Part shown: positions 21,495 to 23,673 of the stretch, one piece after another
Layout: the number at the start of each line of letters is the position of its first letter
Position numbering within the stretch: position 1 is the stretch's first letter
Source: Pyramidobacter piscolens W5455
Lineage (GTDB): Bacteria; Synergistota; Synergistia; Synergistales; Dethiosulfovibrionaceae
Direction of reading: 5' to 3'
NCBI RefSeq assembly: GCF_000177335.1
Contig: NZ_ADFP01000128.1
Span: 1-33,453, forward strand
DNA length: 33,453 nucleotides
The notes under the pieces: model-generated
Databases searched by the model: none
What the model was told of the DNA's origin: nothing
The model's input: only the letters and a program-made list of their open reading frames with translations
Translations under genes and position numbers: made by a program

Positions 21495-22373
21495 TCATCG
21501 CTTCCAGAAGTGTGGGATCAGGATGCCGGTCATGACCAGCGCCGCGCCGATCAGGCTCTGCAGGCCGAAAGACTCGTGCAGGAACAGACAGCCGAGGATG
21601 GCCGCGCTGACGGGGGCCAGCGCGCAGAAGAATCCCGCCCGTTCCGCCGTGGTGCCGCGCTGGGCCATCGGCTGGAGCGTGAAGCCAAAGCCCGAACAGA
21701 CCACGGCCAGCCCGGCGATCGAGCCCCATTCCACGCCGCCGGAGGGCAGGCGCGGCGAGCCGAAACAGAACGCTGCAATCGTGGCGAACAGCGCCATGCC
21801 GCCCACTTGAATGAGCCCGAGCGTGAGCGGATCGTGACGGCGGGCGAAACGTTCGGTGACGATAATGGCCAGCGCGTAGAGCATGGCTGCGAGCACGCCG
21901 AACAGGTCGCCGGACGAAAATCCCGACAGGCCGCCGCGCAGCGTCAGGCAGGCGATGCCCGTCAGCGTCGCCAGCACGCAAACGACGGAGCGCCGGCCGG
22001 GCCAGCGGCGTTCAAGCAGCGCCTGGTACAACGGCACGAAGACGAACGCCGAATTTTCCAGAAAGGCAATGCGCGACGAATCGGACGTGCGCAGCCCCAG
22101 CAGTTCCGCCGCCATGGTGGCGATAAAGATGCCGCCCAGCAGCAGACCGCGCCGGACAGCGCTCCAGCCGGCGAAGAAAATTCTTTTCCAAAAGATCGGC
22201 GCCAAAAGCGCAAAAGCCATCACGAAGCGTACCGACAGCAGATTCAGCGGCGTCATGCGGCGCAAGACGATTTTCGACAGCAGGAAAGATCCCGAGCGGG
22301 CGACGATCACTGCCGCGAGAAGAAGCTCCGCCTGTGTTCTGTTCAGTTGCGCCGGTTTTTCGTCAAGAGTCAC
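21495..22373 (-). CDS. DMT-superfamily (EamA) transporter
   Basis: The 292-residue protein has about ten hydrophobic helices in two EamA repeats of five (SKIVLRRMTPLNLLSVRF in the first, AMLYALAIIVTERFARR at the start of the second). Such proteins usually export amino acids or other small metabolites across the inner membrane. The start is GTG (22373), 8 nt after GGAGGGGG; the in-frame ATG at 22409 would lie upstream of this ribosome-binding site. It is divergent from the CobD-like gene. No substrate can be named. Confidence 0.88.
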   Translation of the reverse strand: MTLDEKPAQLNRTQAELLLAAVIVARSGSFLLSKIVLRRMTPLNLLSVRFVMAFALLAPIFWKRIFFAGWSAVRRGLLLGGIFIATMAAELLGLRTSDSSRIAFLENSAFVFVPLYQALLERRWPGRRSVVCVLATLTGIACLTLRGGLSGFSSGDLFGVLAAMLYALAIIVTERFARRHDPLTLGLIQVGGMALFATIAAFCFGSPRLPSGGVEWGSIAGLAVVCSGFGFTLQPMAQRGTTAERAGFFCALAPVSAAILGCLFLHESFGLQSLIGAALVMTGILIPHFWKR

Positions 22374-22588
22374 TTTGATTCCCCCTCCGTTCCGGGATGG
22401 CACGAGCATAGGCGATTTTTATCCTTGAGTAAAGCGAAACAAATTCAATTTGTTGTTGCTTATTGCGCAAAAGCATATTGATCGGAACACGTCGCTTCTT
22501 TGCGGCGGCTCAGTCCGGTCCCGTCGATTTTCATCCGCCGGATTTTGAGGTATACTGAATAAAATCTGTCGGCAGAGGAGGCGGCGTC

Positions 22589-23617
22589 GTGATCAAAATT
22601 CTCGATTTCAGCGTGCGGGCCAATCCGCTCGGCACGCCGGAAGCCATCAAAACGGCGCTGACGGCCGCCATTCGCGACCAGTGCGGCGCGCCCGTCGATC
22701 CCGACTTTACCGCGCTGCGCCAGACCATCGCGCTGCGCCACGGAGTGCAGGGCGGACAAATCGCCGTCTCGCAGCGCGAAGAAGAGCTGATCGCGCTGCT
22801 TGCCGCCAGCGCCGGCGAAGCGCGCCGCGCGCTGCTGCCCGTGCCGTGTCCGCGCTCGTACGAGCGCGTCCTGAAGCGTTGCGGACTGGACGTGAAAAAA
22901 TTCGCGCTGCCGCTCAAGCACAATTACCGCATTCCCCGCGGCGCGCTGGCCGAAGCGCTGGACGGCTGCGACCTGCTCATCCTCGGCAATCCCGCCTTTC
23001 CGTCCGCCGCCCTCATGCCGCCCGCCGAGCTGCTGTCCGAACTCGACCGCTGGCTCGCCGGCGGCGGCTGGCTGATCCTCGACGAACGGGCCGTCGACTT
23101 CACCTACGGCAGCATCACCAACTCGCTGTGGTCGGGGCTGCGCCGCGAGCCGCGCGCCGCGCTGATCCGCTCTTTCACCGATTCGCTGGCCCTCGCCCTC
23201 TGTCCTCTCTGCTACGCCGTCGGCGGCGAGAATTGGATCGCCGCCCTGCGCGCCCGCCAGTTCGCGCCCGCGCTCAGCCCGCTCGCCCATTATCTCGCGC
23301 CCGCGCTCGAGCACATCATGCCGTTCCGTTCCAGCACCGTGGACGCGGTGACGCGCCTGATGCCGCGCCTGATCGGGCGCCTGCGCCGCATCTCCGGCCT
23401 GCGGCCGCTGCCCAGCGACGCCAACTGGGTGCTCTGCCGCCTCGAACGCGACGACATCACAGCTCCCGAGCTGGCTGCCCAGCTGCGGCGGCGTTTCATC
23501 ATCGTTCCTCCCTGCATCGACGAGCGGCACTTCACGCTCGGCCTGCGCGTCCCCATCGAGACCGACCGTTTCATCAAAGCCGCGCGCGAGATTCTGATGC
23601 CGAAAACGAAAGCGTGA
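22589..23617 (+). CDS. CobD/HisC-like fold-type I PLP-enzyme homologue lacking PLP-binding residues (probable pseudoenzyme)
   Basis: The 342-residue protein follows the threonine-phosphate decarboxylase/HisC layout: DFSVRANPLGTPEAIK at the start, DPDFTALRQTIALRHGV, PCPRSYERVLKRCG, ILDERAVDF. Every cofactor motif is changed, however. The GNGA phosphate loop is SQRE (61-64), the NPNNPTG segment is GNPAFPSA (133-140), the SLTKxxxxPGLRLGY lysine segment reads SFTDSLALALCPLCY, so the Schiff-base lysine is Asp198, and the arginine that binds substrate carboxylate is Pro206. The frame is intact and strongly coding. It starts with GTG after GAGGAGG. It should not work as a PLP enzyme; a binding, regulatory or new catalytic role is possible. 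No cobalamin genes are nearby. Confidence 0.8.
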   Translation: MIKILDFSVRANPLGTPEAIKTALTAAIRDQCGAPVDPDFTALRQTIALRHGVQGGQIAVSQREEELIALLAASAGEARRALLPVPCPRSYERVLKRCGLDVKKFALPLKHNYRIPRGALAEALDGCDLLILGNPAFPSAALMPPAELLSELDRWLAGGGWLILDERAVDFTYGSITNSLWSGLRREPRAALIRSFTDSLALALCPLCYAVGGENWIAALRARQFAPALSPLAHYLAPALEHIMPFRSSTVDAVTRLMPRLIGRLRRISGLRPLPSDANWVLCRLERDDITAPELAAQLRRRFIIVPPCIDERHFTLGLRVPIETDRFIKAAREILMPKTKA

Positions 23618-23621
23618 TTCA

Positions 23622-23673
23622 AGAAAAAGCGCGGCCGCCGGCCGGAAAAATTTTCCGACCGGCGGCCGCGCCG
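23622..23673. terminator. Bidirectional terminator, 17-bp stem
   Basis: Arms at 23627-23643 and 23653-23669 (GCGCGGCCGCCGG and partner) have one G-T pair and flank AAAAATTTT. Five A precede it, giving T5 on the minus strand, and ATTTT follows. The CobD-like gene and the NTF2-like gene converge on it. Confidence 0.88.

Follow-up and report, generated by a model that had tools for sequence, protein, structure and literature searches.

A gene in the window, the 33,453-nucleotide stretch of Pyramidobacter piscolens W5455 DNA analyzed here (contig NZ_ADFP01000128.1), encodes a selected pseudoenzyme of fold type I: its predicted fold is intact, the Schiff-base lysine has been lost, and the loss is shared by its orthologues. 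The protein descends from a CobD/HisC-type PLP enzyme of that fold. Catalysis has very likely been lost, to judge from the residues, and the protein's present role is almost certainly a new one and probably not enzymatic. The account that we favor, with about half of our confidence, is that it is a genus-level pseudoenzyme, most likely a stand-alone, PLP-independent and probably homodimeric protein that binds a ligand or a partner and has a rebuilt former PLP pocket.

The open reading frame ends with a stop codon at 23615-23617 (Table 1). An earlier sequence-only reading had placed the gene correctly and in the right frame, as the GTG, the upstream AGGAGG and the stop codon indicate. Four genomes share an almost unchanged core promoter and ribosome-binding site, and the DNA farther 5′ has diverged. 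The stem-loop that follows the gene scored highest as a terminator of the opposite strand and is probably a bidirectional terminator. A frame-wise substitution test detected constraint in the sense frame only (dN/dS, 0.11 to 0.16 by NG86 among close relatives); the long antisense and +2 open frames had an apparent dN/dS of ~2 and have acquired stops in the most diverged orthologue (genome G004). A chance reading frame and an antisense gene are thus ruled out.

Table 1. Coordinates, in the window, of the pseudoenzyme gene, its signals and the codons at former PLP sites
Feature	Position	Strand	Basis
CobD-derived pseudoenzyme gene (342 aa, GTG start)	22589..23617	+	Pfam, TIGR01140, orthologues, dN/dS
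Promoter-like TTTTCA-17-TATACT	22528..22556	+	promoter scan; inside a ~35-bp identical or near-identical stretch in 4 genomes
Shine-Dalgarno AGGAGG	22576..22581	+	sequence; kept in 4 genomes
Ala34 codon, site of the cross-subunit PLP-phosphate Tyr (CobD Tyr56)	22688..22690	+	alignment
SQRE (61-64) replacing GNGA/GNGE, PLP-phosphate loop	22769..22780	+	alignment
NPAFPSA (134-140) replacing NPNNPTG; Asn157 to Phe137	22988..23008	+	alignment
Asp165-Glu166, retained pyridine-N aspartate and neighbor	23081..23086	+	Asp invariant in all relatives
Asp198 codon at the Schiff-base Lys216 site	23180..23182	+	alignment
Pro206 codon at the Arg224 (PLP phosphate) site	23204..23206	+	alignment
Thr316 codon at the substrate-Arg337 site	23534..23536	+	alignment
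Strong stem-loop between convergent genes	23628..23672		scan; conserved in close species

Alignment of the protein to Salmonella enterica CobD (1lc5/1lkc; E value, 1.2e-22) gave an ungapped stretch that covers the changed sites. Opposite Lys216, Arg224, Asn156-Asn157 and AGNGE of CobD stand Asp198, Pro206, Ala136-Phe137 and VSQRE, which bears out three earlier claims: an aspartate at the Schiff-base lysine site, SQRE in place of GNGA, and an altered NPNNPTG loop. A different lysine in the Schiff-base role is ruled out, the alignment being ungapped around residue 198 and residues 190 to 214 containing no lysine. In a family alignment (MAFFT), Ala34 falls at the cross-subunit tyrosine and Thr316 at the C-terminal substrate arginine; nothing in the protein matches CobD residues 1 to 22, which include the HGG segment that active relatives carry, so that the N-terminal arm is missing. 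The roles assigned to these sites are those generally ascribed to them in the family, and Arg224 we take to be the arginine that holds the PLP phosphate. Pro206 had been read as replacing the carboxylate arginine; an arginine has indeed given way to proline there, but the arginine for the substrate carboxylate is another residue, at Thr316, and is likewise lost. Similarly, most PLP-binding motifs are gone, but the claim that every one was lost is slightly overstated, since Asp165, Glu166 and the phosphate-loop Ser195 are kept. Judged from these residues, the pseudoenzyme probably does not bind PLP.

The gene was found in five of six Pyramidobacter genomes: that of the window, three with proteins at 95% identity, and G004, at 57 to 59%. 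No copy was found in the sixth, G005, whose assembly is 83% complete. A 95% copy from Pyramidobacter sp. C12-8, seen in a genome-contig scan, is probably that of the G002 genome and was left out of the counts. No copy has the lysine: four genomes encode Asp at residue 198, and G004 encodes Ser. The other losses are common to all five copies, as are two length changes close to the active site, a deletion of five residues and an insertion of one. Hence, a loss confined to this strain, with relatives keeping the lysine, is ruled out: the four other genomes have lost the same residues. A search of 180 Synergistota genomes gave 96 relatives, and the Schiff-base lysine is kept in 91; the remaining five are four pseudoenzyme orthologues and one unrelated protein (L121). 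The pyridine-nitrogen aspartate is invariant across all relatives. Conservation among the pseudoenzymes at the 23 lost positions is average (13 of 23, versus 56% over the whole protein). The best-conserved blocks between the diverged lineages lie at about residues 121 to 160, 181 to 240 and 261 to 320, and the pocket residues Phe137, Cys205-Pro206, Thr316 and Trp280 are the same in both lineages. Five cysteines (residues 87, 127, 205, 283 and 309) are invariant in all pseudoenzyme copies, and four of them are rare in active relatives.

The AlphaFold model of the protein has a mean pLDDT of 93.2, and its predicted fold is of type I, nearest to CobD. Among solved structures, the four entries for S. 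enterica CobD came closest (TM score, 0.90 to 0.91; Z score, 39 to 40; ~2 Å over 328 to 333 residues), followed by HisC proteins; the pairing with 1lc7 gave a Z score of 39.9 and 1.9 Å over 332 residues. A CobD-like model was partly to be expected, because the predictor's alignment included active relatives. The aminotransferase layout that had been called intact is thus retained in the model. Pfam Aminotran_1_2 matched at 4e-14, and the best NCBIfam model was TIGR01140 (CobD; 1.4e-30), with HisC second. The TIGR01140 score was 106.5 bits against a cut-off of 290.55, which no genome of the family reaches, lysine-bearing CobD included. We do not file the protein as CobD, because the defining lysine was tested for and is absent.

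Between close species, pseudoenzyme dN/dS by YN00 was 0.045 to 0.064. A codon model over the five genomes gave an omega of 0.070, a rough value, since synonymous sites are saturated towards G004; the argument rests on the close pairs. The lysine-bearing CobD paralogue of the genus had a higher omega, 0.121. Fisher tests of the substitution counts against equal rates gave P values of ~1e-10 to 1e-11. We conclude that the gene is kept under strong purifying selection. The proposal that selection acts on a non-PLP function gains support from the shared losses, a dN/dS of ~0.07, and the fold kept in the model.

The genus also has genes for a lysine-bearing CobD at other loci; in G001, G002, G003, G004 and G005 the distance to cbiB is no more than ~6 kb, and in the window's genome, this copy is cut by a contig end. 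Because the genus has such a CobD, mostly near cbiB, B12 synthesis does not depend on the pseudoenzyme as an enzyme. The cbiB matches in G003 (C1:2677856-2678730, minus strand) are two adjoining pieces in different frames, a possible frameshift. G013, from another genus of the same family, has one clear CobD, which keeps the lysine and is encoded in a cbiB-cobD-cobT-cobS-cobU cluster. The pseudoenzyme clade joins this Jonquetella-like CobD in the tree (support, 87/88), both branches being long; with the G013 row removed, its placement is weakly supported.

The pseudoenzyme gene is monocistronic, divergent from rmuC and convergent with SnoaL-like and MazG-like genes, and a TRAP transporter is also nearby. 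Its neighbors in G004 are different, rmuC and the others not being kept there. No cob genes, riboswitch or regulator adjoin the gene, and the context names no function. An EamA-type transporter gene (window positions 21495-22409, minus strand) lies between rmuC and the pseudoenzyme gene in this genome only; it is absent at the site in G001, G002 and G003. Elsewhere in the window, a SAM riboswitch (RF00162; 15485-15576, minus strand) scored barely over the gathering threshold.

The account that we favor starts from what the sequence shows: a CobD/HisC-type enzyme has lost its Schiff-base lysine along with the cross-subunit tyrosine, the substrate arginine, the HGG arm and most of the cofactor ligands, and its fold is predicted to be kept whole. 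The former PLP pocket would have been remade largely from hydrophobic and uncharged residues (Phe137, Cys205-Pro206 and Thr316), and the product would be a cofactor-free binding protein acting alone beside the genus's active-looking CobD. The rebuilding is the weaker part of this account, because conservation at the former catalytic sites does not exceed that of the protein as a whole. More tentatively still, in an ancestor of the known Pyramidobacter species a decarboxylase of the B12 pathway may have become an allosteric regulator or a ligand sensor that has a remodeled pocket and needs no cofactor; its descendants would then be a family of bacterial fold-type-I pseudoenzymes with a novel role.

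Fold-type-I enzymes usually form dimers whose active sites lie where the subunits meet. The main rival, to which we give roughly half the weight of the stand-alone account, is that the pseudoenzyme pairs with the active CobD paralogue (or with CbiB) as a regulator or non-catalytic subunit; the heterodimer would tune synthesis of the aminopropanol-phosphate arm of B12, by analogy with LCB1 and LCB2 in serine palmitoyltransferase. Lysine-less LCB1 is a real precedent (PMC3794620); the pseudoenzyme shares ancestry and fold with CobD, and the genomes that hold it also have a lysine-bearing CobD and CbiB. However, the residues that would be lent to a partner's active site (the tyrosine at position 34, the Tyr56 site, and the N-terminal HGG arm) are gone, and we therefore lean towards a stand-alone role. 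In addition, the gene lies outside the cob cluster, and the pseudoenzyme lineages are somewhat farther apart than those of the active paralogue (57 to 59% versus 62 to 65% identity), so there is no sign of tight coevolution with the active CobD.

The sequence-only reading had also offered changed chemistry, by which the protein would be an enzyme of another reaction with a remodeled pocket lacking PLP. The pocket residues shared by both lineages, the retained Asp165 and Glu166, and the invariant cysteines would fit such an enzyme, but the lysine site varies and the former catalytic positions change at the average rate, so the proposal was not supported and we consider it doubtful. Residue 198 itself varies between Asp and Ser, so that no conserved residue has taken the place of the lysine, and a new catalytic residue there is unlikely. 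Some fold-type-I enzymes work without the lysine, and non-covalent binding of PLP or PMP, in a B6-responsive protein or an enzyme that depends on the cofactor or is of PMP type, would agree with the invariant Asp165 and the kept Ser195; we regard it as improbable, since none of the phosphate ligands (the tyrosine, Arg224 and the GNG loop) survives, nor does Asn157, a ligand of the ring. The massive loss of catalytic residues might suggest a decaying pseudogene or an assembly artefact, a reading we give almost no weight because five genomes, among them an isolate-type assembly (L012), carry the gene undamaged, and the omega of ~0.07 refutes decay.

Compared with known systems, the protein shares with CobD (1lc5, 1lc7, 1lc8 and 1lkc; TIGR01140) the whole fold, 28% identity, the DFSxxxNPLG segment and the equivalents of Asp185 and Ser213, but lacks the Schiff-base lysine, Asn157, Arg224, Tyr56, Arg337 and the HGG arm, and is not encoded in a cob cluster. 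With HisC (3ftb and 1fg3; TIGR01141) it shares fold type I and the general alignment, but it has lost all the defining catalytic residues except the aspartate, and it scores lower against HisC than against CobD. To our knowledge, there are few functional lysine-less fold-type-I proteins, and most are known as the partner of a catalytic subunit. GcvPA, the alpha subunit of the bacterial two-subunit glycine decarboxylase, is a lysine-less fold-type-I polypeptide that, unlike the pseudoenzyme, is encoded with its active partner. LCB1 is a fold-type-I member without the PLP lysine (PMC3794620). In serine palmitoyltransferase, LCB1/SPTLC1 resembles the pseudoenzyme in being lysine-less and kept beside an active paralogue, but it belongs to another subfamily and is a known heterodimer subunit. 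Lysine-less fold-type-I proteins are thus already known as a kind. Full-text searches of literature outside subscription journals, on PLP pseudoenzymes, CobD paralogues and Pyramidobacter genomes, turned up no description of the Pyramidobacter one. It is bacterial, free-standing, nearly genus-wide and more constrained than the lysine-bearing paralogue, and offers a small, tractable test of what the PLP-enzyme fold can do without PLP. Under the automatic label "aminotransferase class I/II", these genomes would be assigned an activity that they lack.

A lysine-less HisC-like lineage, independent of the CobD pseudoenzyme, occurs in two other Synergistota genera (L127, 7591-8685, plus strand; L136, 6283-7419, minus strand; L137, 6933-8042, plus strand; L138, 6905-7993, plus strand), with 32 to 35% identity across them. 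These proteins have Tyr, Phe or Leu at the lysine site and PNDPTG where NPNNPTG would stand. Each gene is followed by one for a TrpR-family repressor (HisR), and each genome has at least two other full HisC copies. Operons of hisC and hisR in Synergistetes have been described (PMC9413887); a term search of that article's text returned no mention of lost catalytic residues. Because other families (L025, L029 and L030) have the same gene pair with the lysine kept, and because other full HisC copies are present, the lysine-less protein may now act with HisR, as its sensor or partner. A second, independent lineage in the same phylum suggests that conversion to a lysine-less form recurs.
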